From an uncultured Pelagibacteraceae bacterium (lineage in GTDB: Bacteria > Pseudomonadota > Alphaproteobacteria > Pelagibacterales > Pelagibacteraceae), in assembly GCA_902607945.1 (NCBI GenBank), contig CACLMD010000001.1, positions 24,272 through 88,271 of the forward strand: 64,000 nucleotides of DNA. The letters are read 5' to 3'. This document shows, piece after piece, positions 3,080 through 64,000 of this stretch. The notes under the pieces were generated by a model. That model worked only from the letters and a program-made list of their open reading frames with translations. It was not told the DNA's origin and did not search any database. The position numbers were made by a program, and so were the translations under genes. The stretch's first letter is position 1. The number at the start of each line of letters is the position of its first letter.

Positions 3080-3080
3080 T

Positions 3081-3443
3081 ATGAACTTTGGACAATCAAT
3101 ATCTTACTGTTTTTCAAACTATTTTAATTTTAATGGTCGTGGATCAAGATCAGAATATTGGTGGTTTGTTTTGTTTTGTTTGATTTTAGAATTTGGAGGA
3201 AGTGTTTGGGATGCTTCAATGGGTGATACAAGCGGCAACGGATTTATGTACTGGATTGCTGTAGCTGCAACTTTTTTTCCAAGTATAGCTGCTGCTGCTA
3301 GAAGACTACATGATGTTAATAAATCAGGATGGTGGCAACTAATTGCATTTACTATTATAGGATTGATACCATTAATCATTTGGCTAGCTAGTGTTGGTGA
3401 AAAAAAGAAAAATAAATACGGTCAACCAATTAAACTAAGGTAG
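3081..3443 (+). CDS. DUF805 family inner-membrane protein
   Basis: This 120-residue protein starts one base after the ion-channel stop, so the two are probably co-transcribed. It opens with the DUF805 (YhaH) signature: a short amphipathic start, FNFNGRGSRSEYWWF, hydrophobic helices, and the ARRLHDVNKSGWWQL motif before the last helix (IIGLIPLIIWLASVG). The C-terminus is short and basic. The molecular function of the family is not established. Family assignment is firm because of the RGSRSEYWW and RRLHDVNKSGWW blocks; role in relation to the channel is unknown. Confidence 0.88.
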   Translation: MNFGQSISYCFSNYFNFNGRGSRSEYWWFVLFCLILEFGGSVWDASMGDTSGNGFMYWIAVAATFFPSIAAAARRLHDVNKSGWWQLIAFTIIGLIPLIIWLASVGEKKKNKYGQPIKLR

Positions 3444-3452
3444 ATAAAATAA

Positions 3453-8357: not shown

Positions 8358-9814
8358 TTAATCCACCAATCAGTTATCTTATTTTTAAAATTAATCTTTT
8401 CTTCCATTGCATATGCAATGTTTAGTATATTTTGTTCATCAAAAGCTTTACCAATTATTTGTAAACCTAATGGATATCCTTTGGCATCATGACCTGCTGG
8501 AATAGAAATTCCAGGTAAACCAGCTAAATTAACTGGTACAGTAAAGATATCATTTAAATACATTGATACTGGATCATCTTTCTTCTCTCCGATTTTAAAT
8601 GCTGAGCTCGGTGTTGAAGGAGTTAATATTGCATCAACCTTTTTATATGCCTCATCAAAATCATTTTTAATCAATTTTCTAACTTTTTGAGCTTTAAGAT
8701 AATAAGCATCATAGTAACCAGATGACAAAACATAAGTTCCAATCATTATTCGTCTTTGAACTTCTGCACCAAAACCTTCTGACCTAGTTTTTTCATACAT
8801 TTCTGTAAGGTTCTCTCCTCCTTTAGCTCTAAATCCATATTTTACACCATCATATCTAGCTAAATTAGATGAGGCCTCTGCTGGTGCTACAATATAATAA
8901 GTTGGCAAGGCGTAACTTGTGTGAGGAAGTGATATATCTAATATTTCTGCTCCACAGTCTTTTGCATACTGAATACCTTTTTGCCAAAGTTCTTCAATTT
9001 CTTTTGGCATTCCATCAACTCTGTATTCTTTTGGTATTCCAATTTTTTTACCCTTAATATTTTTTGATAATTCTTTACTGTATTCATTTCTTTTAAAATC
9101 AATTGAAGTAGAATCTTTAGGATCATAGGTGCTAATTACTTCTTGAAGTAACGCACAATCTTTTACATTCTGCGCCATAGGACCTGCTTGATCTAGAGAT
9201 GATGCAAATGCAACTATACCGTATCGTGAACAACTTCCATAAGTTGGTTTAAGACCTACTGTTCCCGTAAAAGAAGCTGGTTGTCTAATTGAACCACCTG
9301 TGTCTGTTCCAATAGTTATTGGAGTTAATTGACCAGCAACTGCTGATGCTGAGCCTCCTGAAGAACCTCCAGGGACTAAATTTTTATCAATTGGATTTTG
9401 AACATTACCAAAGAAACTAGTTTCATTCGATGATCCCATTGCAAATTCATCACAATTTAGTTTTCCAAGAAGTATGGCTCCTTCATTCCAAATATTTTGT
9501 GTAACAGTAGACTCATAAGTAGGCACAAAATTATTCAAAATTTTACTTCCAGCAGTTGTGCGAATACTGTCTGTACAAAACAAATCTTTAACTGCCATAG
9601 GTATACCTGGTAACTTTAGTTGAAGATTGGGTTTTTGATCAAATTTTTTAGCTTTTTCTAATGCAGATGAATAATCTTCAGTAATGTATGCATTTAACTC
9701 TTTAGATTTTTCAGACCTATTAATAAAAGCTTTTGTAACTTCTTCTGAGGATAATTTTTTATCTTTTATGTTTTTAACTAATTCTGAAAGTGATTGTTTT
9801 GTAATATCTGACAT
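8354..9814 (-). CDS. gatA: Asp-tRNA(Asn)/Glu-tRNA(Gln) amidotransferase subunit A
   Basis: GatA is the glutaminase subunit that releases ammonia from glutamine for GatB. The 486-residue protein shows the amidase-signature features: MAVKDLF supplies the catalytic Lys, [17 protein letters not shown] the cis-Ser region, and [19 protein letters not shown] the nucleophilic Ser. The [18 protein letters not shown] block further supports GatA rather than another amidase. It sits between gatC (one-base TAATG overlap) and gatB (four-base overlap), the classic CAB order. Confidence 0.97.
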
Positions 9815-10101
9815 TATTCAATAACCTTTGGTACAACAAAATAATCTTCATTATCTTGAGGTGAATTTTTTAATATTTGTTTACGAATATCTTCACTTTT
9901 AATCTCATCAGATCTTAATTTAAGAGTAGTTTCAGCAACAGATGTCAGGGGCACAACGTTGTCTGTTTTTAATTCATTAAGTTTTTCGATGAATTTGAAA
10001 ATTGAGTTTAAATCACCAGCTAATTTCTCTGCTTTTTGTTCATCAACTGATATCCTTGATAGTTTAGATATATGCTTTATTGTTTTAAGATCTATGCTCA
10101 T
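9814..10101 (-). CDS. gatC: Asp-tRNA(Asn)/Glu-tRNA(Gln) amidotransferase subunit C
   Basis: GatC is the small belt subunit that holds GatA and GatB together. I chose the ATG at 10101, which gives 95 residues beginning [17 protein letters not shown], the normal GatC start with its DxxxxxxxAxLAxL-like helix. An upstream ATG at 10131 in the same frame would add ten residues (MVVCVIFKYH) that have no match in the family, so it was rejected. The C-terminus contains [20 protein letters not shown] and then [13 protein letters not shown], as usual. It is the first gene of the minus-strand run down to 3453. Confidence 0.93.
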
Positions 10102-10141
10102 ATGATATTTAAATATGACGCAAACTACCACTTAAGTTTAA

Positions 10142-10147
10142 ATTATA
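10142..10147 (-). promoter_or_regulatory. Candidate -10 element for the gatC operon
   Basis: Reading the minus strand, a perfect TATAAT occurs about 40 bases upstream of the gatC ATG in the 50-base divergent gap to ruvX. No convincing -35 hexamer is seen at 16-18 bases, so the call rests on the -10 alone in AT-rich DNA. Confidence 0.3.
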
Positions 10148-10151
10148 CAAT

Positions 10152-10607
10152 ATGATCACCTTAGAGGAATTCAAAAAAAAACAGTTAGATAAGTCTAGAT
10201 TAATAGGTTTAGATCTTGGCTCTAAAAGAATTGGTGTGTCGATATGTGATGAAAAACAATTAATTGCTACACCATTTAAAACTATTAATAGAACCACTGC
10301 TAAAGAGCTCATAAATGAACTTAAAATTATAATTGAAGAAAATAATATTAAAGGGATTATTATAGGAAATCCTCTGAATATGGATGGATCATCAAGTAGC
10401 TCGACTCAGTCTGTAAAAGATACCTCTGACAATATAGAAAAAAGTATTGATATACCTATTTGTCTGTGGGATGAAAGATTATCAACTGTTGGAGCTTTCA
10501 ATTTATCTAGTCAACTTGATGTTAATGTAAGTAAAAGAGAAAAAAAAATAGATGAAAATGCTGCTGCATTTATATTGCAAGGTGCAATAGATTTTTTAAA
10601 TAATTAA
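10152..10607 (+). CDS. ruvX: YqgF/RuvX-family RNase H-fold nuclease
   Basis: The 151-residue product belongs to the YqgF family, implicated in 16S rRNA 5'-end maturation and also annotated as a putative Holliday junction resolvase. The fold is shown by SRLIGLDLGSKRIGVSICDE (first catalytic Asp), IKGIIIGNPLNMDGS (second strand) and LWDERLSTVGA with KIDENAAAFILQ (acidic residues of the RNase H core). The length is close to the usual 140. It is the first gene of a plus-strand series and is divergent from gatC. pyrB follows after 42 bases. Confidence 0.94.
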   Translation: MITLEEFKKKQLDKSRLIGLDLGSKRIGVSICDEKQLIATPFKTINRTTAKELINELKIIIEENNIKGIIIGNPLNMDGSSSSSTQSVKDTSDNIEKSIDIPICLWDERLSTVGAFNLSSQLDVNVSKREKKIDENAAAFILQGAIDFLNN

Positions 10608-10649
10608 TACTTGCTATTATAGAGGTTTATAGTTATAGAGTTGGTTTTA

Positions 10650-11591
10650 ATGGCAATTAAAACCGATAAAGCTGTTAAAATTTCCCAAAAACATCTGTTA
10701 GGTATTCAAGATTTATCGATCAATGATGTTAATTTGATATTAGATGAAGCTCAATCTTTTATAAAGCTAAACCAAAGTAAAAATAAAAAAATTGATACAC
10801 TTAGAGGTAAGACTCAAATAAATCTATTTTTTGAACCCTCAACTAGGACGCAAAGTTCATTTGAACTAGCGGGTAAAAGGTTGGGAGCAGATGTCATGTC
10901 AATGAATATGGCTAATTCAGCTATCAAAAAAGGTGAAACGTTAATAGATACAGCAATGACTTTAAATGCCATGCATCCAGATATTATTGTTGTAAGGCAC
11001 CAAGACTCAGGTGCTTGTAACTTGCTATCTCAAAAAGTTAATTGTTCCGTTTTAAATGCAGGTGATGGCCGAAGAGAACATCCTACTCAAGCGCTATTAG
11101 ATGCTTTAACAATTATAAATAGGAAGAAAAAAATTGAAGGTCTTAAAATAGCAATTTGTGGTGACATCCTTCATTCAAGAGTTGCGAGATCAAATATTTA
11201 TTTACTTAATATGCTTGGTGCTGAAGTAAATATTATAGCACCAACAAATTTAATGCCAAAAGAAATAGAGAAATTTGGTGTAAATACTTTCACCGATATG
11301 AATAAGGGTTTAAAAGATTGTGACATCGTTATGATGTTACGGTTGCAAAATGAAAGAATGACTAGCTCGTTCCTTTCATCAAACAGGGAATATTATGAAT
11401 ATTACGGTTTAACTCCAAACAAGTTGGAGCACGCTAAACCTGATGCTTTAATTATGCATCCAGGCCCAATGAATAGAGGTATTGAAATTGATACAATATT
11501 AGCAGACGACATTAATAAAAGTGTAATTAAAGAACAAGTTGAACTTGGAGTGGCAGTAAGAATGGCTTGTTTAAAAATGTTTTGTATATAG
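10650..11591 (+). CDS. pyrB: Aspartate carbamoyltransferase catalytic subunit
   Basis: PyrB condenses carbamoyl phosphate and aspartate in the second step of pyrimidine synthesis. Motifs are [20 protein letters not shown] (carbamoyl-phosphate loop), [14 protein letters not shown] and [13 protein letters not shown]. The ATG at 10650 gives 313 residues; an in-frame TTG nine bases earlier is possible but less likely. The stop codon is immediately followed by the ATG of the dihydroorotase-like gene, with no base between them. This matches the pairing of PyrB with a DHOase-like partner in other proteobacteria. No pyrI regulatory subunit is present. Confidence 0.96.
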
Positions 11592-51399: not shown

Positions 51400-52149
51400 A
51401 TGAACAAATCAACTTTTTTTATTGTTGGCCAACATGCTGTAATTGAGGCTCTTAAAAATCCAAGAAGAAAAGTTTTAAGACTATTTTTAACTGAAGAAAG
51501 TAAAAAAAATATTCACAGAAATAGCCCTAAAAAAAACTTACTAGAGGATATTAAGGTTTATTTTAAAACAAAGAAAGAGTTGGATAAATATTCTACTAAA
51601 GAAAATTTACTTCACCAAGGATATGTGGCTGAAATTGAACATTTAAACAAACCTATACTTAAAGAGTTTATAAAAGATAAAGATAATGAAGAAATTACTT
51701 TAGTATGTTTAGATAGTGTTACTGACCCAAGAAATATCGGTTCTTTAATTCGAAGTGCATTGTCATTTAATATTGATGGAATTATTATAAAAGAAAGACA
51801 TTTTCCAGATGAAAGTAAACTTATGTACAAGGCTGCAAGTGGAGCGATGGAATATATTAATATATTTGAGGTATCTAATATAAATTCTACTCTAAAAAAT
51901 TTAAAAGATAAAAACTTTTGGATTTATGGTTTTGATGGAAAAGGAGATAAAAAATTTACAGAAATTGAATGGCGAGGAAATAATATTCTTGTTTTTGGTT
52001 CAGAAGGATCGGGCATGCATGAACATACATCTAAATATGCCGATTTTTTAGTAAAGATCGATATTAATAAAAAAATTGAAAGTTTAAATATATCTAACAG
52101 TGCTGCAATTGTTTTTCATCATTTAAGTTACTTAAAAAAAAATGATTAA
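51400..52149 (+). CDS. rlmB: 23S rRNA (guanosine-2'-O-)-methyltransferase, RlmB/SpoU family
   Basis: The 249-residue SpoU enzyme has the N-terminal substrate-binding domain (FIVGQHAVIEALKNPRRKVL) and the SPOUT knot with its three motifs: LDSVTDPRNIGSLIRSALSF, ILVFGSEGSGMHEHTSKYAD and LNISNSAAIVFHHLSYLK. RlmB methylates Gm2251 in the P loop of 23S rRNA; a TrmH-like tRNA target cannot be excluded. An AGGGA Shine-Dalgarno-like site precedes the ATG. Its last four bases overlap the convergent reductase gene. It marks the boundary between the core cluster and the accessory block. Confidence 0.92.
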   Translation: MNKSTFFIVGQHAVIEALKNPRRKVLRLFLTEESKKNIHRNSPKKNLLEDIKVYFKTKKELDKYSTKENLLHQGYVAEIEHLNKPILKEFIKDKDNEEITLVCLDSVTDPRNIGSLIRSALSFNIDGIIIKERHFPDESKLMYKAASGAMEYINIFEVSNINSTLKNLKDKNFWIYGFDGKGDKKFTEIEWRGNNILVFGSEGSGMHEHTSKYADFLVKIDINKKIESLNISNSAAIVFHHLSYLKKND

Positions 52150-53168
52150 TGAATTTTTACCAAAAATCTATGAGCTTTCATATTAGAAATCTTTGATTTC
52201 ATAACTTTTGAAACATCTTTTAATTTTATTACTTTTACTAATTTAGTTAAATCTTTTTTAAATTTTAATGAATTAAATCTTTTAAATATTTTTTTTCTTT
52301 CATTCAGGTTTGTGAGCTCTGCATTAATTCCTTTAATGTTTATACCTCTTAAAATCAAAGGTAAAATATTTATTTTAGAAACGTTATTTAAGATGTTTCC
52401 TATAGAAACAAACATGCCACCTTTGATTAAATACTTCAAACTATTGTCTATTATATCACCCCCTAAATTATCAAATATAACAGAATATTTTTCATTCAAT
52501 AATCCAAAATTATTTGATTTAAGAAACTTTTTTGGTGAATGTATCTTTTTTATATTTAAAATTTTGAAAATGTTACTTGTCTCTTTTTTTGAACTTATTA
52601 CTTCAACATCTATTCCATATGTTTTGAGTAAAAATACTATAAACATTCCAACATTACCTGATGCTCCAGTAACCAATACAGGTTTTTTTTTATTTGTCTG
52701 AATTATTTTTAGAGAATTGTTAAAAGCCTTAATGGCTGTAAAGCCAGATGTGCCTATTATCATTGACTCCTTCAAAGTTAATCCTCTAGGTAATTTATCA
52801 ACCCAGCTTTCTGGAACTAAAATAAATTCTGAAAAAGATCCATTTCTTTCAATGCCCAAAGGTCTAGCTATCACCATAACTTTATCATTTCTTTTAAATT
52901 TTTTTGAGTTTGAATAATAAATAATTCCACTAGCATCAATCCCAGGTATGTGGGGAAATCTTTTAATAAGATTAGGACTATTATTTAAAATTAGAATATC
53001 TTTATAATTTATATTTGTATAAGAAACTTTAATTACAACAAAATTTTTTTTAATATCATTTTTGTATAAATAGTTATTCTTAGTAATTCGATTAGTAATT
53101 TTACCCTTGTGCATTTTAAATATTTTTAATGCATTATAATTTATTGGAAATATCTTATCTAAGCTCAT
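52146..53168 (-). CDS. AcuI/YhdH-family NADPH-dependent enoyl reductase (MDR)
   Basis: The 340-residue medium-chain dehydrogenase/reductase lacks catalytic-zinc ligands. Family blocks are VSYTNINYKDILILNN, RFPHIPGIDASGIIYYSN, GTSGFTAIKAFNNSLK and the nucleotide site VLVTGASGNVGMFIVFLLKT. This pattern is that of AcuI/YhdH acryloyl-CoA reductases, which reduce a 2-enoyl thioester. AcuI acts in DMSP/acrylate metabolism in marine bacteria. Here the gene is the last of a minus-strand operon with FabZ, LuxC and LuxE homologues (four-base overlap with the dehydratase), so reduction of an enoyl thioester in that pathway is inferred. Lys content is much higher than in core genes. Confidence 0.82.
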   Translation of the reverse strand: MSLDKIFPINYNALKIFKMHKGKITNRITKNNYLYKNDIKKNFVVIKVSYTNINYKDILILNNSPNLIKRFPHIPGIDASGIIYYSNSKKFKRNDKVMVIARPLGIERNGSFSEFILVPESWVDKLPRGLTLKESMIIGTSGFTAIKAFNNSLKIIQTNKKKPVLVTGASGNVGMFIVFLLKTYGIDVEVISSKKETSNIFKILNIKKIHSPKKFLKSNNFGLLNEKYSVIFDNLGGDIIDNSLKYLIKGGMFVSIGNILNNVSKINILPLILRGINIKGINAELTNLNERKKIFKRFNSLKFKKDLTKLVKVIKLKDVSKVMKSKISNMKAHRFLVKIH

Positions 53169-53599
53169 TTTTTTGATATAAAATAATTATAGTTCCCACT
53201 AGCAATCTTAATATTTTTTTGATCCTTAACAATTCCAAAAGTTTCAATTTTAATTTTATTAATTTTTAATATCTTTATATAAATATTTAGAATAGTTGGA
53301 TTATTAATTTTAGCATAAAAATTTGTTTTTGAGCTAGTAATAAGACATATTTTATCTTTGAACATTCTATTTGAATAAAGAGTTGATACTATAGTTTGAA
53401 GTATTGACTCCTCTATTAAAGTTCCGGGCATCATTGGATTATCAAAAAAATGACATTTTAAAAACCAGGAATTTTTTTTAACATGTTTAATGCCGGTAGC
53501 CGATTTAAGAGAAATGATATTTTTAACTTTATCTATCATAAGAAAAGGTTCTTTAATTTTTGTTAATGAAATAATCTTTTTTTTATCTAGGTTTTTCAT
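53165..53599 (-). CDS. FabZ-like hotdog dehydratase (first copy)
   Basis: The 144-residue hotdog-fold protein resembles 3-hydroxyacyl-ACP dehydratase FabZ. It has KEPFLMIDKV, the catalytic His50 in WFLKCHFFDNPMMPGTL and the catalytic Glu64 in LIEESILQ. Glycines around the helix differ from housekeeping FabZ (CHFFDNPMMPG instead of GHFPGxPxMPG), so it is a divergent paralogue dedicated to this cluster. Expected reaction: dehydration of a 3-hydroxyacyl group bound to a carrier. It overlaps its neighbours by four bases and one base. Confidence 0.78.
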   Translation of the reverse strand: MKNLDKKKIISLTKIKEPFLMIDKVKNIISLKSATGIKHVKKNSWFLKCHFFDNPMMPGTLIEESILQTIVSTLYSNRMFKDKICLITSSKTNFYAKINNPTILNIYIKILKINKIKIETFGIVKDQKNIKIASGNYNYFISKK

Positions 53600-54789
53600 T
53601 ATTTAGCAATTGTTCTAGATAAAGTTGCAATTATATCAACACCATCCCACTCAGGAGTTAAATCAAAAGCTCTACCAACTGGTACAATTCTATCTATACC
53701 TTTTAACTTATTCTTAATAATAAATTTTTTTAAGACATCAAACTTTGTTCCATGATAAGTTATTGTTTGCAATTTTTCACTCACATAGTCTTTTAATTGG
53801 TCAATGTTTTTAAGGTCAATTTCAAAAAAAGTCCCAAAATTTACACTATTTAAATCATCTAATGTAAATCTTTTACTTTTTAATTTCACCAAGTTAAAAT
53901 CATCTATATCTATTTTGAATTCTTCTTTTTTATTCAAAGAAAAATTCATTAAATTTGAAATCTTTTTATTTGCTCCAGATAGATCTAAATCATACTTCTG
54001 ATTTACTATTTTTTTCAATTTAGTCCAAAAAAAATTTTTATTTTCTTTTTTTTTTCCAAGCCAAAAAATAATATTAGGGGAAGAACAACCAAATTGATCC
54101 ATCGTATAGGTGTCATTAAAAAATTTTTGTGCTAAATTTAACATTTGATTATCATTTAATTTATTTAATTTATCTGAGTCTAAAATAGAAATAGAATACC
54201 TATCAGCAAATGTAAGATCTATACATCTTGGTTTTGTCGTAAAAGTTTTAAATTTATTGATTGTTTTATCTCCACCCCAAATTATTCGTGCTTCGACATT
54301 TTTAGATATTTCTGAAGAAATAGTGTCAGAATTCTCATATTTTATTAACAATAGTTTATTAAATATTTTTTTTAGTTTTCTTTTTTTTGATAGTTTTTTT
54401 AAGATTTTACAAAGTATTTTAACTTGAAAAAAATTTTTACTTGGAAGACGAATTATATTGTTATTACCAGATAATAATCCAAAAACCATTGAATATGCAA
54501 AATTGGTTGGCACGTTTGATGGTGCAATATGTAAAACAGTACCGCGACCTACCCTATCTTTAAAGAAATTATAATTATTAAATAAAGATCTTATATTACT
54601 ATTCCTGCACCAAAAACCAAAGCTAATTAAATCAGGAAATTTTTTGCATTCAATATTAGTCATAATATATTTTGAAATTTCATTTAAAAAGAAAATCACA
54701 TCTTCACTAAAAATTTCAAATGGGCCCTCTTTGAAATCATAATTTCCAATAATTACTTTTATTTCTTTTTTAATTTTAGCTAACATCAC
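53599..54789 (-). CDS. LuxC-family acyl-CoA/acyl-protein reductase
   Basis: LuxC enzymes reduce an activated fatty acyl group to an aldehyde with NADPH, receiving the acyl chain from LuxE. The 396-residue protein has GRGTVLHIAPSNVPTNFAYS, then LSGNNNIIRLPSKN (cofactor site) and the nucleophile Cys235 in DTYTMDQFGCSSPNIIFW. These are the defining LuxC blocks. No luciferase genes are nearby, so the aldehyde is not for light. The gene overlaps the LuxE-like gene by 14 bases, and translation of the two is probably coupled. Confidence 0.88.
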   Translation of the reverse strand: MMLAKIKKEIKVIIGNYDFKEGPFEIFSEDVIFFLNEISKYIMTNIECKKFPDLISFGFWCRNSNIRSLFNNYNFFKDRVGRGTVLHIAPSNVPTNFAYSMVFGLLSGNNNIIRLPSKNFFQVKILCKILKKLSKKRKLKKIFNKLLLIKYENSDTISSEISKNVEARIIWGGDKTINKFKTFTTKPRCIDLTFADRYSISILDSDKLNKLNDNQMLNLAQKFFNDTYTMDQFGCSSPNIIFWLGKKKENKNFFWTKLKKIVNQKYDLDLSGANKKISNLMNFSLNKKEEFKIDIDDFNLVKLKSKRFTLDDLNSVNFGTFFEIDLKNIDQLKDYVSEKLQTITYHGTKFDVLKKFIIKNKLKGIDRIVPVGRAFDLTPEWDGVDIIATLSRTIAK

Positions 54790-55840
54790 TGCAGCCTCTA
54801 AGTTCAGAGTCTGGAACTCTGCCTAAAACAGTAAAATATTTGCCTAATTTACCACATTTGCAATTATCTTCTCCATGAATTATTCCAATATCTTCAGTTA
54901 ATAAACTTTGTCCAGGATAACTTGCTGGTAATAAGGATAAAGTTTGAATCAATCCTGCTTGATTTGTTTTACATAATTCTAATTTTGAATTTCTAATTAG
55001 AATGTCTGAAAAAAGTGAGCAATGAAAATATCCTTTTTCGCATTCAAGAAAAACAGAACCAGTTTGTTCGATCATACCATAATAATTATAAATTTTATTT
55101 ACACCAAGTACATTTTTAGCTTCATTTTTAAATTTAGTATTGTTTACTCTAAATTTGGTCATTTTTTTCCAACCACCACCATGAATTATCATTCCTGAAT
55201 TTTTTTTAAGTCTAATTTTTTTTCTTTTCATCTCATTGATTAAATCAAACCAAATAGAACTGGTAAATCCAAAAATAATAAACTCTTTATCTTTATTAAA
55301 TCGCATATATTTTTTCAATATTGATAAGTCTAATTTTTTTTTTTTATCTAATAAAAAAAATTTATTTCTACATAGTTGTCCAAAACCTTTAATTGCTGCT
55401 CCTTTGGCTGACATTGCTTCTTTTGATTTTAAAAAGCTTTTGCTTTCTAAGAAAAAAATATCCACATCTTTACGAATGATATTTGAAAAGATTTTATTTA
55501 AAGCTTTGGACTGCAAAATAGCAGTTTTATAATCCAAATGAATATTTGATTTCTTTGCATTAGTTGTTCCTGATGAATTAAATGTTGAAACTTTGTTTTT
55601 ATCTTTTTTTGAAATTAAATTAAAATTTTTAAATAGTGAAACATGTAAAAATGGTAGATCTGAAATTGTTTTTGTTTTGGAAATTGACTTAAATAAATTA
55701 TTCGAGATTAACTTATATTCTTTAGAATTATTATAATGAAATTTTGATAATCTTTTAATATTAGAAAAAAAAAGTTTATTTTTTTTTTCAACTGGTAAGC
55801 TAAAAGAATTTAAATTAAATAATTTCTTATAGTTTAACAT
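54776..55840 (-). CDS. LuxE-family acyl-protein synthetase
   Basis: LuxE activates a fatty acid with ATP and holds it on a Cys near the C-terminus before passing it to LuxC. The 354-residue protein contains the adenylate-forming motif TFNSSGTTNAKKSNIHLD, IHGGGWKKMTKFRVNN, IYNYYGMIEQTGSVFLECEK and a C-terminal GRVPDSELRGCSDVS with Cys350 at the acyl-accepting position. It overlaps the AMP-ligase gene by 14 bases and the LuxC gene by 14 bases. Natural substrate unknown; it may be a free fatty acid or a carrier-bound chain. Confidence 0.85.
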   Translation of the reverse strand: MLNYKKLFNLNSFSLPVEKKNKLFFSNIKRLSKFHYNNSKEYKLISNNLFKSISKTKTISDLPFLHVSLFKNFNLISKKDKNKVSTFNSSGTTNAKKSNIHLDYKTAILQSKALNKIFSNIIRKDVDIFFLESKSFLKSKEAMSAKGAAIKGFGQLCRNKFFLLDKKKKLDLSILKKYMRFNKDKEFIIFGFTSSIWFDLINEMKRKKIRLKKNSGMIIHGGGWKKMTKFRVNNTKFKNEAKNVLGVNKIYNYYGMIEQTGSVFLECEKGYFHCSLFSDILIRNSKLELCKTNQAGLIQTLSLLPASYPGQSLLTEDIGIIHGEDNCKCGKLGKYFTVLGRVPDSELRGCSDVS

Positions 55841-57248
55841 TTATTTTTTTAAGCTCGTTGTAACTTATTTTTTTGTTTGGTGTTCTCGGAAAATATTTTA
55901 GCTTAATCACTTCAAAAGATCTAACACTAAAGGTGGTAATTTTTGATATTATATTTATTAATCTTTTTTTTTCATAGTTTTTTTCCATATAAATAAAAAT
56001 TTTTTTATCATCACTATGACAGGCAATTTTATATCCTTTTTTCCTCATTAAATTCTCCAAAGCACCTAGGTCAACTCTATTACCAAAAATTTTAGCAATT
56101 TTATTTTTTCTACTTGTTATAAAATAAAATCCATCCTTATCAAAATAACCTAAATCTCCTGTTGCAAGTTTAAATTGATTTGTATTATCAAATTTTAAAT
56201 CTTTAAAGTTTTTGGAGTACCCCATAAATACATTTTTTCCTTCACAAATTAATTCTCCTTGTTTAAAGGGTTTTAAGATTTTTTTTCCGTATTCATCAAC
56301 TAAATAAATATTATTTCCAGGTATTCCTTTACCAATGCTTCCAATTTTCTTTTTTAAATATTCTGGTTTTAAATATGAAATTCTTGGTGATGCTTCTGTT
56401 TGACCATACATACTATAAAATTTTAAATCATTATTATCACAAAATTTAATTATCTCTCTAATATTTGTTTCTTCTAGTTTTCCTCCAGCTTGAGTAAGAT
56501 ATCTTAATGTTTTAATTCTAATATTTTTAAGACCAATTTTACTTAGGATTTCATATGCATAGGGAACACCATTGAATGAGGTAATTTTATTCTTTTTGAA
56601 AACCTTCCAAAAATTTTTTTCAATTAAGGAATTATTTATAACTATTATTGATCCACCTTTTTCTAAATGGGTATTAATTACAGAAAGCATGTAGCTATAA
56701 CTGATTGGTAAATTTGTTATTGCGCAATCATTTTTTTGAATTTTTAAATATTTGATAATAGAGTCTGTATTATTTTTAAGGTTGGATTTAGATAATTTAA
56801 CGAATTTAATAGTCCCCATCGATCCAGAAGTGGATAACAACAAGGATAAGTTTTTGTTAAGATTTATTTTTTTGATAGATTTATTTTTTAATAAAATTTC
56901 ATTATAAAAACTATACTTTTCTTCACATTTTCTGTGAAATATTGACTCATTTTTTTTTGATAAAAAAATATAGTTAGGTTTATAATTTTTAAAGATCTTA
57001 AGAATATCTTTTTTTTTTGTTTTTGAGTCTACAATTATTGCAGCATGATTATTAATTATACAAAAAATGTATGCTATTAAAGAACCAATACTATTTTCTG
57101 AAATTATTAAGATCAAAGACCTTTGATTAACTTTTTTTTTGATCTTATTTAATTCAATTAATAAATCTTTATAAGTAAGTTTTAAAAAACTTCCATCACT
57201 TATAGCTATTCTGTTACGATGATGAACAAAAGATTTAAATAATCTCAT
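55827..57248 (-). CDS. AMP-forming acyl-CoA/acyl-ACP synthetase-like ligase
   Basis: The 473-residue adenylate-forming enzyme has the ATP loop LLLSTSGSMGTIKFVKLS (the usual T and P are M and I), the FYSMYGQTEASPRISYL motif, the GDLGYFDKDGFYFITSR hinge region and the C-terminal catalytic Lys in PNKKISYNELKK. The protein is shorter than long-chain acyl-CoA synthetases and closer to carrier-loading ligases. Its likely role is to activate an acid for transfer to CoA or to the ACP at 62178-62414. It starts nine bases after the transketolase C-subunit gene. Substrate unknown. Confidence 0.82.
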   Translation of the reverse strand: MRLFKSFVHHRNRIAISDGSFLKLTYKDLLIELNKIKKKVNQRSLILIISENSIGSLIAYIFCIINNHAAIIVDSKTKKKDILKIFKNYKPNYIFLSKKNESIFHRKCEEKYSFYNEILLKNKSIKKINLNKNLSLLLSTSGSMGTIKFVKLSKSNLKNNTDSIIKYLKIQKNDCAITNLPISYSYMLSVINTHLEKGGSIIVINNSLIEKNFWKVFKKNKITSFNGVPYAYEILSKIGLKNIRIKTLRYLTQAGGKLEETNIREIIKFCDNNDLKFYSMYGQTEASPRISYLKPEYLKKKIGSIGKGIPGNNIYLVDEYGKKILKPFKQGELICEGKNVFMGYSKNFKDLKFDNTNQFKLATGDLGYFDKDGFYFITSRKNKIAKIFGNRVDLGALENLMRKKGYKIACHSDDKKIFIYMEKNYEKKRLINIISKITTFSVRSFEVIKLKYFPRTPNKKISYNELKKINVKL

Positions 57249-57257
57249 TTGAAAGAT

Positions 57258-58229
57258 TTATTTAATCTTCAATAAGTTGGATATTTTTTTTGTAATACCA
57301 AGAGCATCAAGTCCGTAGTATTTTAACAAATGATCATATTTTGCAGTCGGTCCAAATTTATCTGGTAATGATAGCGAATAAAGTTCTGATCTAATTTTAT
57401 TTTTTAAAATCTTTTCAGCAATTATACTTCCTAGCCCTCCTACTGAAGTGTGTTCCTCTATTGTGATAATCTTTTTAAACTTTCTCATTAATTTAATTAT
57501 ACTTTCATCTATAGGTTTTAATGAGACAACATTTACTAATTCTGCATTAATCTTTTGTTTTTTAAGGTAATTCAAAGATAGTTTAATTTGACCTAATATT
57601 GAGCCATGTGAAAGAATTAAAATATCATTTCCTTTTGATAATGTAATATTTTTTCCAAATTTATATTTATAATTTTTTTCATAAACATTTAAAGATCCAG
57701 GTACACCTGTAAGCCTGATATAACTGGGTCCCCTATTATTAAAAGCATAATCATCTAAAACCTTACCTAATTCTGAACAATCTGCAGGACAAGTTATGTT
57801 AAGGTTTGGAATGGTCCTCATAATTGCCAAATCTTCGAGTCCAAAGTGGCTATTGCCTAAAAATCCCATTGACAACCCACTGCCTAATGCCACAAGGTTA
57901 ACGTTTTGTTTCATATAGCCTAAATTCATTCTTATTTGTTCACTTGCTCTCATTGATAAAAATGGAGCAAAAGAAGTCACGAACACTTTGTATCCCTCAT
58001 TAGCAAGACCTGATGCAACCCCAATTAAATTTTGTTCACTTATTCCTATTGAAATATATTGTTTTGGAAACTCTATTTTAAATCTTGCTAAACCTGAAGA
58101 TCTTCCTAGATCTGCACTAAGAACAATTAGTTTTTTATTTTTCTTAGCAATATCAAGCATAAATTTACCAAACATTGCTCTTGGACCTAATCTCGACCAT
58201 TGTTTTGTGTCAGTAGAACTAAAATTCAT
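57258..58229 (-). CDS. Transketolase C-terminal subunit (split transketolase)
   Basis: The 323-residue protein corresponds to the pyrimidine-binding and C-terminal domains of transketolase. Key parts are the catalytic Glu in YISIGISEQNLIGVASGLAN, SFAPFLSMRASEQIRM, and EEHTSVGGLGSIIAE in the C domain. With the N subunit two bases upstream it should form a complete thiamine-diphosphate enzyme that moves a two-carbon ketol unit between a ketose donor and an aldehyde acceptor. Split transketolases occur in secondary-metabolite and polysaccharide clusters as well as in carbohydrate metabolism. Its place among LuxC/LuxE genes suggests an unusual acceptor. Confidence 0.88.
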   Translation of the reverse strand: MNFSSTDTKQWSRLGPRAMFGKFMLDIAKKNKKLIVLSADLGRSSGLARFKIEFPKQYISIGISEQNLIGVASGLANEGYKVFVTSFAPFLSMRASEQIRMNLGYMKQNVNLVALGSGLSMGFLGNSHFGLEDLAIMRTIPNLNITCPADCSELGKVLDDYAFNNRGPSYIRLTGVPGSLNVYEKNYKYKFGKNITLSKGNDILILSHGSILGQIKLSLNYLKKQKINAELVNVVSLKPIDESIIKLMRKFKKIITIEEHTSVGGLGSIIAEKILKNKIRSELYSLSLPDKFGPTAKYDHLLKYYGLDALGITKKISNLLKIK

Positions 58230-58231
58230 TT

Positions 58232-59038
58232 TTAATTTAAATTTATTGATTTAATCGATTGTAAATATAGTTCTTTAGTTAATCTTCCATGATGCCAATC
58301 ATTATTGTTCTCCATGAAATTAACACCTTTGCCTTTTATAGTTTTAGTAATTATTGCAGTTGGTTTTGATTTTGATCCTTTTTTAAATGCATTAATTAAT
58401 GCAAGAACATTGTGGCCATTGCAGCTGTTAACATTCCATCCAAAGCCTTTCCATTTTTTTTTCATTTCTTCATAACTCATCATTTTATCTATTGCGCCAT
58501 CATTTTGATGACCGTTACAATCTACAACTACAAATAAATTATTTAAATTTTGTTCTGTTGCTGTTATTGCTGCCTCCCATATAGACCCTTCATAACATTC
58601 TCCGTCTCCAACAACGACTATAACCGAATTATCTTTATTCTTTTTTTTATAAGAAATTGCCAAACCAACTCCAAATGACAAACCTTGTCCTAAACTTCCA
58701 TTAGAAGTTTCTATGCCTATTGATTTATTCATAATTGGATGAGCAATAAATTCACTCTCATTTTTCTGAAATTGCATTAAATCTTTTTTTTTCTTGATAA
58801 AACCTTTGCAATGAAGAATTGACAGCAATGCTAAAAAACCATGTCCTTTACTTAATATAAATCTATCGAATGGTTTATTAATTTTAATATCAAAAATTGA
58901 ATATATTACTGATAAAATTTCAACTATGGATAACGCTCCACCTATATGTGAAGGCTCTCCACAATTATAACTAATATCTAGAATAATTTTTCTAATTTTA
59001 TAACTCAATTTTTTTATTTGATTTACTTTTTTTAACAC
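58232..59038 (-). CDS. Transketolase N-terminal subunit (split transketolase)
   Basis: The 268-residue thiamine-diphosphate domain carries GGALSIVEILSVIYSIFDIK, FILSKGHGFLALLSILHCKG and GLGQGLSFGVGLAISYK. The TPP/Mg2+ motif GDGECYEGSIWEAAI is followed by VVVDCNGHQN. These are complete, so the subunit should be active once joined with the C subunit. It overlaps the SDR gene by seven bases. It is separate from any housekeeping transketolase, none of which lies in this window. Confidence 0.9.
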   Translation of the reverse strand: MLKKVNQIKKLSYKIRKIILDISYNCGEPSHIGGALSIVEILSVIYSIFDIKINKPFDRFILSKGHGFLALLSILHCKGFIKKKKDLMQFQKNESEFIAHPIMNKSIGIETSNGSLGQGLSFGVGLAISYKKKNKDNSVIVVVGDGECYEGSIWEAAITATEQNLNNLFVVVDCNGHQNDGAIDKMMSYEEMKKKWKGFGWNVNSCNGHNVLALINAFKKGSKSKPTAIITKTIKGKGVNFMENNNDWHHGRLTKELYLQSIKSINLN

Positions 59039-59763
59039 TCCATTCCTCCATCTAAATAAATGATTTGCCCATTTATATATTGTGAATTTTTAGATGATAA
59101 AAAGAGTATTAAATTTGCAACTTCAATTGGCTCACAGGCTCTTTTCATGAATGATTTAGAAATTAATTCATTTCTAGATCTAGGATCCATTTTTTTTAAC
59201 ATTTTTGTATTCGTTGCACTAGGACAAATACCGTTAACTCTTATGTTATAATTTGAAAATTCATTAGCCATTATTTTTGTTGCGTGCATCAATGCTGTTT
59301 TACTGCAACCATAAGATAGAGTACCTTTATCTGCTGTTTTAGTCACAACAGATCCAATATTTATAATAGATGCTCTTTTAGATTTTTTTAAGTACTTAAG
59401 TAAAAGTTGAGTCAATCTTATCTGTGAAAAAAAATTCACATCAAAAATTTCTTTTAAATTTTTTTGAGAAGTCATCTCTATTGTCGATCCAGAGGCCTTA
59501 CCAGCGTTATTTATTAATAGATCTAACTTGTTCTTAGTTGAAAAAATTTTTTCTATTTTTTCTTTTAATTGAGACTCATTAGTTAGATCAGCTTCAATAA
59601 TTTGTATTCTTTTAGAAAATTTTTTAACATAATTTTTAAATTTGTTATCTGATTTTCTTATTAAACAAATAACGTTGGCATTATTTTTAAGAAATAAATC
59701 TAAAATTGATTTTCCAATACCTCCATTTGCACCTGTAATTAAAGCTGTTTGACCTTTTAACAT
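59032..59763 (-). CDS. SDR-family oxidoreductase (FabG-like)
   Basis: The 243-residue classical short-chain dehydrogenase has the cofactor site ALITGANGGIGKSI, LLINNAGKASG, catalytic Ser in NIGSVVT, and the YxxxK pair in LSYGCSKTALMH. The C-terminal ends with YINGQIIYLDGGMEC, as in FabG. It likely reduces a 3-keto group or a ketol to an alcohol using NAD(P)H. Operon partners (FabZ-like genes, ACP, transketolase) point to an acyl or acyl-ketol substrate. Seven-base overlap with the transketolase N gene. Confidence 0.85.
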   Translation of the reverse strand: MLKGQTALITGANGGIGKSILDLFLKNNANVICLIRKSDNKFKNYVKKFSKRIQIIEADLTNESQLKEKIEKIFSTKNKLDLLINNAGKASGSTIEMTSQKNLKEIFDVNFFSQIRLTQLLLKYLKKSKRASIINIGSVVTKTADKGTLSYGCSKTALMHATKIMANEFSNYNIRVNGICPSATNTKMLKKMDPRSRNELISKSFMKRACEPIEVANLILFLSSKNSQYINGQIIYLDGGMEC

Positions 59764-59769
59764 TTTATT

Positions 59770-60150
59770 TTATTCTCTAAAAAATTGTTTTTTATGTTTA
59801 GCTTTTTTTAGTAATTTAAACACATTTTCTTTTTTAATATCTTTTAAATAATATTTTTTTCTTAAATTAAGTGAATTTATAACTGAATTTGATGTAAAAT
59901 ATGTATCTAAAATATCATTACCTAAAAGTTTTTGATAAATTTCAATATCTTTTTTTTTAAATATTTTGATTTTTTTTTTTTTTAAATTGAGTAAGAGCTT
60001 ATTTTTTAAATATTTTTTTATTATAGTTTCAATTTTTACAGCATGCGAAAAACAAGGCATAAATTCATCACCCGGTATCATATTGTTTAAAATATTTTTT
60101 AGATTATTTTTAAAAATATATCTTTTTTTTGAATCAGTCATTTCTAGCAA
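59770..60150 (-). CDS. Small protein, possible gluconate-2-dehydrogenase subunit-3-like partner
   Basis: This 126-residue, Lys-rich protein starts inside the end of the GMC oxidoreductase gene (17-base overlap). The segment NILNNMIPGDEFMPCFSHAV resembles the IPxD...P start of gluconate 2-dehydrogenase subunit 3 proteins, which pair with GMC-type flavoproteins. No Tat signal or membrane helix is visible. Translation could begin at 60150 or at the Met at 60141. A run of 14 A codes for the Lys tract near residue 60. Partner role is inference from motif and position. Confidence 0.6.
   Translation of the reverse strand: MLEMTDSKKRYIFKNNLKNILNNMIPGDEFMPCFSHAVKIETIIKKYLKNKLLLNLKKKKIKIFKKKDIEIYQKLLGNDILDTYFTSNSVINSLNLRKKYYLKDIKKENVFKLLKKAKHKKQFFRE
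59970..59983. repeat. 14-base homopolymer (T on plus, A on the coding minus strand)
   Basis: A run of 14 identical bases lies inside the small partner gene and spans a four-Lys tract (TTA, four AAA, ATC). A one-base change would shift the frame for the C-terminal half. It may be a slippage site or a sequencing weak point. Confidence 0.6.
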
Positions 60151-61702
60151 TTAATCTTTTAAAATTTTTTTTTATATAATCCGATATCATTAAAGACACA
60201 GCCTGTACAGTTGATGCAATATTTACTCCAGACGATGAAGGAAATATACTGCTATCAATTATAAATAAATTTTTAATATCATGACATTGTCCAAATTTAT
60301 TTACTACTGAATTGTTTTTATTTGTACCCATTTTGGCAGTACCTACCAAATGCCATCCTGTATTTTTGACTGGACCAAAAGCTTTAATACTTTTTGCACC
60401 AGCTATATTAAGTAATTTTTTACAATGATAAATTCCGTGTGTTAACATTTTCTTTGAATTTTTTGATAGTCTATAATTTATTTTTATACCTGGCATTCCA
60501 TCACTGTCTTTATTTTTATGATCTAACTGTATAAAATTATTTTTATTAGGTGTATCTTCGCAAATTATTGCTAAGGGTATTGTTTTTCCATAATAAGCAA
60601 ATAAATCATTAAAAAATGATTTGCCAAAATTAATCTTTTTAAATTTTTTTAAATAATGAAAAGACTCAATGGGTCCTGGTGATTTTAAAAGTTGAATAGT
60701 ATAACCTCTTTTGAAGTTTCTTTTTTTTTTTGTTTCATAAAATTCATGACTATATATTGAGCATCCTTCAGGACCTTCATTTGAATTTAAAAACTTATTA
60801 AAATGCCCTTCTACAAAGCCTAGTGGATGAAGCATCAAATTTTTACCAAGTTGTCCAGAGTTATTTGCAAGCCCATTAGGAAAATCTTTATTTTTAGAAT
60901 TCATTAATATTCTTGGCGTACCAATGCCGCTAGATGCTAAGAGTATTAATGATGCTTTTAAGAATCTTTTCTCTTTTCTTTTATTTGAGTATATTACTCC
61001 AGTTGCAATTTTATTTTTAGATATCTTAATCTTTAAAACTCGAGAATTAGGTTTTATAATTACTCCATTTTTAACTGCTTTATTTAAGTAAGTCTCTACT
61101 ACAGTTGGTCTAATTCCTTTTTTAAATTTGTTAGATTTTTTTATTGCTGCATAAGATGGCCACCAGTGCCATCCAAGTTTATTAAACGATCTAGCTATTA
61201 AACTTCCTGAATAACCTATGTCTAGTGGCGATTGCAAATTATTAATTCTAGGGTAAGCAGGATCGCCAGCCATTCCAGAAACACCAACCATTTTATCATT
61301 AAGATTATAATATTTTTCTAAGTCATTATAATTAAATAACCAATTAGATCCTATGTCATCAATTTCTTTTGTTTTAAAATCTGAAGGATGAAATCTTGGA
61401 TAATGTCCAGAATAAATAAGTGTTGAGCCACCAACTGCGTTATAATTAGAAATGGAAATTGGTGAGTTATCATTATTTATAGGATAATCAGAGTCAAATT
61501 TTCTTTGGTTTGGATCTATATTAAATTTTTTAAATTTACTTATTTCACGATCTTTATTATTAAATGAATATTCTTTTTTATTTATTAACGGGCCTTGGTC
61601 TATACACACTATTTTAAGATTTAATTTGCTCAAATTCCATGCTGAAGCAGCTCCTGAAGCTCCAGCTCCTATTATAAGGATATCTGTTCTCTCTTTTTTC
61701 AT
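60134..61702 (-). CDS. GMC family oxidoreductase (flavoprotein)
   Basis: The 522-residue glucose-methanol-choline family enzyme has the FAD site ILIIGAGASGAASAWNL, the substrate-side loop YNAVGGSTLIYSGHYPRFHP, and the C-terminal active-site region NTGWHLVGTAKMGTNKNNS with the catalytic His. It ends with SSSGVNIASTVQAVSLMISD. Such enzymes oxidise alcohols to aldehydes or ketones and pass electrons to quinone or cytochrome. The His-containing GTAKMG block is like sugar-oxidising membrane-associated members, which fits the small partner gene downstream. Substrate unknown. Confidence 0.88.
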   Translation of the reverse strand: MKKERTDILIIGAGASGAASAWNLSKLNLKIVCIDQGPLINKKEYSFNNKDREISKFKKFNIDPNQRKFDSDYPINNDNSPISISNYNAVGGSTLIYSGHYPRFHPSDFKTKEIDDIGSNWLFNYNDLEKYYNLNDKMVGVSGMAGDPAYPRINNLQSPLDIGYSGSLIARSFNKLGWHWWPSYAAIKKSNKFKKGIRPTVVETYLNKAVKNGVIIKPNSRVLKIKISKNKIATGVIYSNKRKEKRFLKASLILLASSGIGTPRILMNSKNKDFPNGLANNSGQLGKNLMLHPLGFVEGHFNKFLNSNEGPEGCSIYSHEFYETKKKRNFKRGYTIQLLKSPGPIESFHYLKKFKKINFGKSFFNDLFAYYGKTIPLAIICEDTPNKNNFIQLDHKNKDSDGMPGIKINYRLSKNSKKMLTHGIYHCKKLLNIAGAKSIKAFGPVKNTGWHLVGTAKMGTNKNNSVVNKFGQCHDIKNLFIIDSSIFPSSSGVNIASTVQAVSLMISDYIKKNFKRLIARND

Positions 61703-61711
61703 TATTTTTTC

Positions 61712-62173
61712 TTATTTTTTAGGTATGTATTGATCTAAAATTTCTGGAATTGTAATAGTCATCTCGGCTTCACATGCAATTTCTCCAGAAACAATACCTA
61801 TGCCTGTGCCTTTACACAATCCTCTTTTCCAAGATAACACTTTAGTTTCTATCTCAAGTTTTTCTCCTGGCAATATCTCTCTTTTAAATCTCACATTATG
61901 GGAAATTGCATGAGTCACCTTACCCTTGTTACCTGGTAGTGTTGTGATTGCAACTGTCAACATTTGTGCTAGAGCCTCCAACTGAAGAGCACCTGGAACA
62001 TTTGGATGGCCTGGAAAATGAATTGGAAAAAACCATTCATTATTTGTAAAATTTTTATAACCATTAGCTAATTTTCCAGGTATTACTTTTGTAACATAAT
62101 CTATCATTAAAAAAGGATACCTATTAGGTTGATAATCAAGGAGTTCGACGCTATTTAGAGTTTTTTTTTTCAA
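61712..62173 (-). CDS. FabZ-like hotdog dehydratase (second copy)
   Basis: The 153-residue protein is closer to canonical FabZ than the first copy. It has NRYPFLMIDYV, the catalytic His52 in FFPIHFPGHPNVPGALQLEA, and the catalytic Glu66 in that last block. Dehydration of 3-hydroxyacyl chains on the neighbouring ACP is likely. A related hotdog function such as thioesterase cannot be excluded. It lies four bases after the ACP gene and nine before the GMC gene. Confidence 0.82.
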   Translation of the reverse strand: MKKKTLNSVELLDYQPNRYPFLMIDYVTKVIPGKLANGYKNFTNNEWFFPIHFPGHPNVPGALQLEALAQMLTVAITTLPGNKGKVTHAISHNVRFKREILPGEKLEIETKVLSWKRGLCKGTGIGIVSGEIACEAEMTITIPEILDQYIPKK

Positions 62174-62177
62174 ATTA

Positions 62178-62414
62178 TTAAATTTTAACTTTATATTTTT
62201 TTAAAATCTTTTTACCTTTTTCAAATGAACTGAAATCAATTATATCGTCCATATCCAAAGTAATTTTAAATGTATCTTCAAGAGACCCAACCATTGACAT
62301 GTGACCAACAGAGTCCCATTGTGGAATGGATTGATACTTTAATTTCTTTAACTTAGACTTATCAACTGAAAATGTTTTTATAAAAACTTTGCTATATTTA
62401 TCTAGATTATTCAA
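62178..62414 (-). CDS. Acyl carrier protein (cluster-specific)
   Basis: The 78-residue carrier has the phosphopantetheine attachment Ser35 in IPQWDSVGHMSMVGSLEDTF, in place of the DSLD motif of primary-metabolism ACP. Such DSxGHM variants are typical of dedicated carrier proteins in surface-polysaccharide and natural-product clusters. It presumably tethers the chain acted on by the ligase, dehydratases, SDR and reductase. It is 33 bases from the upstream acyltransferase gene. Confidence 0.87.
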   Translation of the reverse strand: MNNLDKYSKVFIKTFSVDKSKLKKLKYQSIPQWDSVGHMSMVGSLEDTFKITLDMDDIIDFSSFEKGKKILKKYKVKI

Positions 62415-62447
62415 AACGTTATTATTTAATATTTTTAGTTAAGATAT

Positions 62448-63323
62448 TCACTTATAAAGATTAATTTCATTATTTAAATACTTTTTTTCAATAAAATCAA
62501 CATTTTCATAAGAGATTATTTCATTATTTTTTTTATTTTTTTTTATTACTGATACAAGTTTTGGTATTTTGTTTCCTAAATCTTTAAGTATTAATTGAGA
62601 GGATTTTCTAATATCCACTTTAAAACAGATTAATTTTCTATATTTATAAAATTTTGAAATTTCATTTTTAAGTAGTAAATAATCGCATTGCTTTGTTATC
62701 GCAGAATATTCACATAGTTTTCTATTTCTGACATATAAAATAATTCTATTTTTTTTTGTTTGATTATCTAAATTCGTACAGAGTAATTCAAAATTTTTAT
62801 CATATCTATATTTAACCTTAGCAAGATATTCAAGATGATGAACGTGGGTAAAAGATCTGCTATAATGATGACCAAGTGTTAATAAATAAAAATTATCATT
62901 AATAAAATATTTCCATAAAGAATTTTTACCTACCGTATGGGGGTCTTTAACTTTTTTATAGATATTGATTTTTTTTCCAAAACATAAAAAAGAATAAAAA
63001 GGCGTTCCAATTCTATATTTATAATAATCTTTGAGTAATAGTGCACCAAGAGCTCCACTATCACTCGAGCTTAATCTTTGGTTAAATTTTTTTTCCTTAA
63101 CTGAATTAAAGTCAAAAACTGGGATTATTAAGTTACCATTTTTGCCTAAAATTTTTAAAAAAAAATCTAATATTTCTTTTACAAAATCAAAACGGTTAAT
63201 TTTTTTGATATTTAAAGTTTTATATAGTTTGAAAATATCTAAACCAAGATAGATATTATCACCTTTCTTTACTTTCAAATTACCTAAAATTTTTTTTAAA
63301 ATCTTTATACTACTTTTTTCCAT
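62448..63323 (-). CDS. AAC(3)-fold N-acyltransferase-like protein
   Basis: The 291-residue protein shows the aminoglycoside 3-N-acetyltransferase (Antibiotic_NAT) plan. VKKGDNIYLGLDI and LGKNGNLIIPVFDFNS are followed by DSGALGALLLKDYYKYRIGT, DPHTVGKNSLWKYFI and the His-containing SRSFTHVHHLEYLAKV. Members found in sugar or polysaccharide clusters acetylate amino sugars or other amines rather than antibiotics. Here it is the first gene of the accessory operon, so it may acylate the final product. It is very Lys-rich. Resistance function is not implied. Confidence 0.78.
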   Translation of the reverse strand: MEKSSIKILKKILGNLKVKKGDNIYLGLDIFKLYKTLNIKKINRFDFVKEILDFFLKILGKNGNLIIPVFDFNSVKEKKFNQRLSSSDSGALGALLLKDYYKYRIGTPFYSFLCFGKKINIYKKVKDPHTVGKNSLWKYFINDNFYLLTLGHHYSRSFTHVHHLEYLAKVKYRYDKNFELLCTNLDNQTKKNRIILYVRNRKLCEYSAITKQCDYLLLKNEISKFYKYRKLICFKVDIRKSSQLILKDLGNKIPKLVSVIKKNKKNNEIISYENVDFIEKKYLNNEINLYK

Positions 63324-63457: not shown

Positions 63458-64000
63458 ATGAATAACTATAGAATTGGAGAAAAGATCTATAAAACAATAA
63501 AAGAACTTTATCCAATAAACAGAAGTTTAACGGGTGATGGAAACAGAAAAACTTTAAGAATCTTTCAAAAAATATCAAAAAAACTCAAAATATTAGAGTT
63601 TAATTCTGGTAAAAAAGTTTTTGATTGGACTATACCACCAGAGTGGAATGTTAAAAGTGCCTACATAGAATCTGATGGTAAAAAGATAATCAATTTTAAA
63701 AAAAATAATTTACATTTAGTATCTTATTCACAACCAATAGATAAAATAATTAGTTATAAAGAATTAAATAAACATCTTTATTCTATTAAAAATAAACCAA
63801 ATGCTATCCCATATATAACATCATATTACAAAAAAAGATGGGGTTTTTGTTTAGCGCATAATGATAGAAAAAAACTTGATAAATTAAAATCTTACAAAGT
63901 TTTTATTGACTCTTGTTTTAAAAAAAAAGGAAAACTATCTGTAGGGGAAATATTAATCAAAGGTAGGTCAAAAAAAGAAATAATTCTAAGTACAAATATT
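63458..64000 (+). CDS. DUF2172/DUF4910-type aminopeptidase-like protein (3' truncated)
   Basis: An ATG at 63458 opens a frame that runs to the window end (181 residues visible). The text KELYPINRSLTGDGNRKTL, KVFDWTIPPEWNVKSAYIES, NNLHLVSYSQPIDKIISYKE and ITSYYKKRWGFCLAHNDRKK matches the family of M28-like metallopeptidase-related proteins (COG4310) known from polysaccharide gene clusters. The zinc-binding residues would lie further downstream. The physiological substrate of the family is not established. It is divergent from the LuxC/LuxE operon and may belong to the same locus. Confidence 0.83.
   Translation, partial: MNNYRIGEKIYKTIKELYPINRSLTGDGNRKTLRIFQKISKKLKILEFNSGKKVFDWTIPPEWNVKSAYIESDGKKIINFKKNNLHLVSYSQPIDKIISYKELNKHLYSIKNKPNAIPYITSYYKKRWGFCLAHNDRKKLDKLKSYKVFIDSCFKKKGKLSVGEILIKGRSKKEIILSTNI

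Follow-up and report, generated by a model that had tools for sequence, protein, structure and literature searches.

A split transketolase encoded with LuxE and LuxC homologues in a conserved surface-glycan gene set: possible two-carbon extension of an aldehyde

A split transketolase encoded directly upstream of AMP ligase, LuxE and LuxC genes in an uncultured Pelagibacteraceae bacterium belongs to a single clade whose genes form part of a gene set found in four bacterial phyla, in surface-glycan contexts. Both halves of the enzyme are encoded on the minus strand, at positions 57258-59038 of the 64,000-nucleotide stretch analysed (hereafter the window), as established from the open reading frame list and from Pfam, NCBIfam and PDB searches. 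We postulate that an unusual acyl group for a surface sugar, probably short and hydroxylated, is the product of the operon, and that a two-carbon ketol is added to the LuxC aldehyde by the transketolase; to this proposal we give an even chance of being correct. The evidence for the pathway context is good; the substrates, including that of the transketolase step, and the order of the steps after the aldehyde are what we infer.

The genes lie within a stretch occupied by minus-strand reading frames only (52146-63323), in which gaps do not exceed 9 bases save for some 33 bases before the TTG start of the acyl carrier protein (ACP) gene. Because of the common strand and tight spacing, the run was read as one operon. 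The gene for the transketolase C subunit (57258-58229) is directly followed by those for an AMP-forming acyl ligase of 473 amino acids (55827-57248; PF00501, 6e-34; STSGS motif), a LuxE acyl-protein synthetase (54776-55840; PF04443, 3e-42) and a LuxC acyl reductase (53599-54789; PF05893, 4e-28), with gaps of 9, -14 and -14 nucleotides. The reading frames, the Pfam and PDB matches and the 9-base gap thus bear out a first-pass annotation of this DNA, which had placed the split transketolase directly upstream of ligase-LuxE-LuxC. The gene for the N subunit (58232-59038) is preceded by one for a short-chain-type (SDR) oxidoreductase (59032-59763; PF13561/PF00106; YxxxK motif), which adjoins the N subunit gene in most loci with the set, as judged from synteny. 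The operon has further members which that annotation had not listed: the ACP of 78 amino acids with a DSVGHM pantetheine site (62178-62414, TTG start at 62414), conserved in the other loci; a FabZ-like dehydratase (61712-62173; NF000582, 113.6 against a cut-off of 113 bits); a GMC flavin dehydrogenase large subunit (60134-61702; PF05199/PF00732) with a probable small subunit (59770-60150); a second, FabA/FabZ-like dehydratase (53165-53599; PF07977, 1e-14), found in the SAR11 variant of the set, including locus L005; and a YhdH/AcuI-type medium-chain reductase (52146-53168; TIGR02823, 245.6 bits, below the cut-off of 297), a possible enoyl reductase also present in L005 and L011. At the upstream end lies a gene of the AAC(3)-like N-acyltransferase family (62448-63323; PF02522, 3e-10), a candidate acyl-to-sugar transferase that adjoins the set in L022 and L011 too.

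On contig C9, the host genome (a SAR11-type draft of 68% completeness) also encodes an ordinary fused transketolase and DXS. No ketosynthase gene was found in the window operon or by a search of the host genome; given the completeness of the latter, the absence is established for the gene set only. A few kb upstream of the set are genes for a C-5 cytosine DNA methylase (L004:8499-9476) and a PD-(D/E)XK nuclease-type protein (L004:5787-6494), which suggests a variable island. A DUF4910/DUF2172 winged-helix protein gene adjoins the set here (window 63458-64000, continuing in L004:1730-3088) and in Pseudoalteromonas (L011:11823-13127).

The N subunit (268 amino acids, GTG start) matches Transketolase_N (PF00456, 8.7e-36), and the C subunit (323 amino acids) matches Transket_pyr (PF02779, 8.3e-32) and Transketolase_C (PF02780, 9.2e-20). 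Among solved structures, the two-chain transketolase of Carboxydothermus hydrogenoformans is nearest to both, its N chain (6yak, 5e-52) to the N subunit and its C chain (6yaj, 2e-54) to the C subunit; by fold, too, 6yaj was the best match when the C subunit was modelled with AlphaFold (pLDDT 88.9). The GDGECYEGS motif and the catalytic glutamate reported at first pass are both present, E65 of the C subunit corresponding to E411 of Escherichia coli transketolase. Together the subunits contain what is expected of a transketolase (EC 2.2.1.1): the ThDP-binding GDG...N motif, the Glu411 equivalent and all five active-site histidines (26, 66, 100, 261 and 473). Compared with E. coli TktA, the N subunit retains the equivalents of His26, His66, His100, His261, Asp155 and Asn185, and the C subunit those of R358, S385, E411 and H473. 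The C subunit has glycine in place of H461, leucine in place of D469 and, at the position of R520, an LTGVP stretch devoid of a basic residue. Two of the four phosphate ligands (R358, S385, H461, R520) and the hydroxyl-recognising D469 are therefore replaced. To the question posed by the first-pass annotation, whether all sugar-phosphate-binding residues are conserved, the answer is mixed: R358 and S385 are kept, while H461, R520 and D469 are not.

Among the C subunits of the clade, H461 and D469 are replaced in 33 of 33 and the basic residue at 520 is lost in 32, the exception being L027, with lysine. Of the 39 split C subunits outside the clade, 38 have arginine or lysine at position 520, and most of the 39 also lack H461 and D469; loss of these two residues was consequently rejected as a mark of the clade. 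On the alignment, residue 520 alone separates the clade from other split transketolases. The Carboxydothermus enzyme keeps H461, D469 and a basic residue near 520, unlike the clade. Another group of Pseudomonadota split transketolases combines R358, G385, G461, L469 and Lys520 with a KGGDP-like motif (L054, L059, L063, L064, L066, L073, L074, L075, L077).

The positions altered include two that have been changed by engineering. In work directed at propanal, the D469T/R520Q variant of E. coli transketolase, shifted towards that aldehyde, showed a 9.6-fold gain in activity over wild type, and S385Y/D469T/R520Q accepts benzaldehydes (PMC6310800); in the yeast enzyme, R528 natively binds phosphate and D477E helps with aliphatic aldehydes (PMC5573996). 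The E. coli variants differ from the clade in being engineered, in carrying other replacement residues and in having H461 unchanged. The lost ligands would fit a non-phosphorylated acceptor. Against this reading stand the retention of R358 and S385 and the frequent loss of H461 and D469 in other split transketolases; moreover, since donor and acceptor share one phosphate site in transketolase, the partial loss of ligands could reflect the donor. The pocket residues are not plainly lipophilic, and the replacements do not of themselves imply a hydrophobic tunnel.

Alignment to the chains of the LuxC-LuxE fatty acid reductase complex (7xc6) showed the acyl-carrying cysteines, Cys350 of LuxE and the active Cys235 of LuxC, to be invariant. 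Chains E and A of this structure are the only close solved relatives of LuxE and LuxC, respectively. The window proteins score far below the NCBIfam equivalog cut-offs for the luminescence LuxC and LuxE (49.7 against 750 and 55.2 against 550 bits), and the operon differs from the luminescence system in lacking LuxD and luciferase and in having an ACP and an AMP ligase. By sequence, then, these proteins are relatives of the luminescence enzymes and not luminescence enzymes themselves. The GMC protein is nearest, among PDB entries, to FAD glucose dehydrogenase (6a2u, 1.5e-38) and to the large subunit of fructose dehydrogenase. The large subunits of both enzymes have small partner subunits. The small protein encoded next to the GMC gene gave no match to PF13618 (gluconate 2-dehydrogenase subunit 3), a weak fold model and no Foldseek match. 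A relative at the same position in L012 exceeds the PF13618 cut-off by 0.1 bit (23.5 against 23.4; the L011 protein scores 19.2), so the window copy is probably a diverged form of the GMC gamma subunit.

A single scan of genome contigs yielded 25 loci with the C subunit. In those not cut by a contig end, the N and C subunit genes are grouped with SDR, ACP, AMP ligase, LuxE and LuxC genes, and the ACP gene adjoins that of the C subunit in several. Most loci also encode a small protein, 117-161 amino acids long, together with the FabZ-like dehydratase and the GMC enzyme, and in these GMC-type sets the dehydratase is about 70-75% identical to the window copy across phyla. The set occurs in SAR11, Burkholderiales, Rhodocyclales, Pseudoalteromonas, Cytophagaceae, Flavobacteriales, Helicobacter, Selenomonadaceae and Oscillospiraceae, and an annotated copy is carried by a Rhizobium leguminosarum plasmid; members of the clade were thus found in Pseudomonadota, Bacteroidota, Campylobacterota and Bacillota. 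In a tree of 75 rows, the 33 C subunits from such sets, that of the window among them, are set apart by a branch supported at 100/100.

The link to LuxE and LuxC was assessed by searching 150 relatives and 399 Pseudomonadota genomes with a C-subunit profile, a search blind to LuxE. Scores fell into two groups, at least 380 bits and at most 278 bits. The set adjoins all seven high-scoring loci fetched, one of which ends at a contig edge at the C subunit gene, leaving LuxE and LuxC out of sight; no LuxE, LuxC, ACP or ligase gene lies within about 8 kb in any of 13 low-scoring control loci. The difference (7/7 against 0/13) gives p 1.3e-5, relatedness and transfer meaning that the loci are not independent trials. 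Six plasmid control loci also lacked these neighbours, bringing the split-transketolase controls to 0 of 19. The coupling of transketolase with LuxE-LuxC suggested at first pass is thus confined to one clade and conserved across four phyla. Viral contigs yielded no relative of the C subunit; phage matches and most plasmid matches were set aside as other split transketolases, with less than 38% identity. Our literature searches found no report pairing transketolase with LuxE or with glycosylation islands.

The set varies in composition. The GMC and dehydratase genes are missing from L083, L027 and L029, indicating that the later steps are not universal. In Helicobacter and two SAR11 relatives (L079:6565-7626, L080:6869-7930, L026:5394-6443), the GMC enzyme is replaced by a radical SAM/SPASM protein, which hints that the same oxidation is perhaps performed with another cofactor. 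The Oscillospiraceae locus L029 has two tandem copies of SDR and both transketolase subunits (7178-8945, 9766-11549) with two LuxE-LuxC pairs, an arrangement that might serve two rounds or two substrates. The SAR11 relative L005 encodes a second, diverged AMP ligase (2377-3804) and two extra SDRs just upstream of the set.

Surface-glycan genes accompany the set. Flagellin is encoded within the fetched stretch in three Burkholderiales/Azonexus loci and within about 1.2 kb in two more. DegT aminotransferase genes occur within or beside sets, in Burkholderiales together with GT41 genes. PseI adjoins the set in the SAR11 relative L079, and the nearest relative of the window locus, L022, has a NeuB-type and a glycosyltransferase-like gene beside it. 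Genes for NeuD/PglD-type or other hexapeptide acyltransferases belong to or flank the set in L016, L025, L017, L081, L082, L083 and the Rhizobium plasmid; the AAC(3)-like gene takes their place in the window, L022 and L011. Every genomic context is a glycan cluster, the annotated sets showed no gene for lipid assembly, and sugars of this type are known to bear short acyl groups (PMC3210612). The medium-chain or "fatty" acceptor of the first-pass annotation accordingly finds no support in these contexts, in the known acyl groups or in the pocket.

The transketolase is an addition to a wider core, since the core is frequent without it. Within a phylum sample, LuxE of this family was detected at 430 bits or more in 14 genomes, ten of which had no transketolase. 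All ten encode ACP, AMP ligase, LuxE and LuxC, and most an SDR as well; PseI and DegT genes are frequent neighbours. In Deinococcus the core adjoins sugar transferase and acetyltransferase genes in an exopolysaccharide cluster. According to two reports (PMC4875605, PMC7874193), the flagellin islands of Aeromonas Group II and Enterobacteriaceae carry the core as "fatty acid" genes (ACP, 3-oxoacyl-ACP reductase, AMP synthetase, LuxE and LuxC) in a surface-glycan setting, often beside pseudaminic acid genes, as here. ACP, AMP ligase, LuxE, LuxC and a reductase are likewise found together in a glycan context in our loci; a transketolase, a GMC enzyme and a gamma-like subunit are not described for those islands, whose genes are putative in function too. 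In Vibrio cholerae, RfbN, which has a LuxE domain, participates in making the 3-deoxy-L-glycero-tetronic acid (2,4-dihydroxybutyrate) substituent of the O-antigen (PMC4772473). The likeness to these O1 rfb tetronate genes lies in that domain. The tetronate genes also include those for ACP, ligase, dehydrogenase and acyltransferase; we know of no transketolase among them. As to the size of the group, an Aeromonas pseudaminic acid derivative of 376.14 Da (PMC7874193) equals Pse5Ac7Ac plus C2H4O2, that is, an acetyl replaced by C4H6O3. This is the size of a dihydroxybutyryl group, which mass alone does not separate from O-methylglyceryl. Taken with the role of RfbN in dihydroxybutyrate synthesis, this arithmetic suggests, by analogy, that the core yields an acyl group that is short and hydroxylated. 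In our reading, a 102 Da cap in Aeromonas flagellin (PMC7874193) also fits a C4H6O3 acyl group.

In the pathway that we propose, the AMP ligase/ACP and LuxE would activate an acid, from which LuxC would form an aldehyde by reduction. To this aldehyde the split transketolase would add a two-carbon ketol, yielding R-CHOH-CO-CH2OH, whose ketone the SDR may reduce, and the GMC dehydrogenase, or the radical SAM/SPASM protein in other variants, would oxidise an alcohol. The product would then return to the ACP, be trimmed there by the reductase and dehydratase(s), and finally pass as an ACP-carried acyl group to an amino sugar of the surface glycan. In bacteria having the core without the transketolase, the LuxC aldehyde is presumably reduced to the alcohol. 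That the LuxC aldehyde is the acceptor, as the first-pass annotation had it, remains plausible: the conserved, clade-specific association with LuxE-LuxC favours it, but LuxE-LuxC operates without transketolase in 10 of 14 genomes and so need not feed it.

In the main rival, the transketolase acts before LuxE-LuxC. It would generate a polyhydroxy ketone, converted to an acid for loading by the AMP ligase, and LuxE-LuxC would reduce the acyl group to an aldehyde or alcohol, just as in the core that lacks transketolase. The five-gene core lacking transketolase, often beside PseI, its presence with an acyltransferase in an exopolysaccharide cluster, and the part played by the LuxE domain protein RfbN in 3-deoxy-tetronic acid synthesis (PMC4772473) all agree with this order. 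It requires, however, another aldehyde acceptor, not obviously supplied by the operon, and loss of phosphate ligands from the pocket makes an ordinary aldose phosphate less likely in that role; we consider this order somewhat unlikely. Another possibility is that the transketolase moves a two-carbon hydroxyethyl or glycolyl unit from a ketose to the adjacent ACP, not to an aldehyde. This is what the two-component DinS/DinU, homologues of NapD/NapB encoded beside an ACP in a biosynthetic cluster, are described as doing (PMC7570522), and the set does have an ACP. Yet NapD-type C subunits are long (754 amino acids in DinS), whereas the one here, at 323, consists of Transket_pyr and Transketolase_C only; those systems have a ketosynthase III partner, LuxE/LuxC are not described for them, and the LuxE-LuxC pair would be left without a linked role. 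Such a transfer seems improbable.

An ordinary split transketolase, providing sugar phosphates for glycan building, would account for the retained R358, S385, catalytic glutamate and histidines, and other split transketolases do act on sugars. This role is disfavoured by the loss of the basic residue 520, H461 and D469 and by the normal transketolase encoded elsewhere in the genome, and it leaves the strict link to LuxE-LuxC unexplained; we regard it as very unlikely. Least probable of all is the original version of the first-pass annotation, in which a fatty aldehyde would be the acceptor and a long-chain 1,3-dihydroxy-2-ketone lipid the product. The LuxE/LuxC relatives of luminous bacteria act on fatty acids, and the families match 7xc6, but the glycan contexts devoid of lipid-assembly genes and the shortness of the known acyl groups (PMC3210612) argue the other way.

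Extension of the LuxC aldehyde, if correct, would have a wider counterpart, which we advance only tentatively: a ketosynthase-free lengthening of chains by two carbons, in which LuxE-LuxC aldehyde formation, C2 ketol addition, flavin or radical-SAM oxidation, return to ACP by an AMP ligase and dehydratase/reductase trimming might supply acyl groups for surface glycans across four phyla. In flagellin islands, the LuxE/LuxC/ACP genes have been published as possible "liposugar" genes. The dedicated transketolase clade gives these genes a concrete, testable chemistry, the addition of two carbons to an aldehyde, and provides a marker gene for finding the product of the set. If the proposal is true, transketolase would join the natural routes to acyl chains, and these would be natural enzymes altered at the positions that engineers changed by hand for non-phosphorylated aldehydes.
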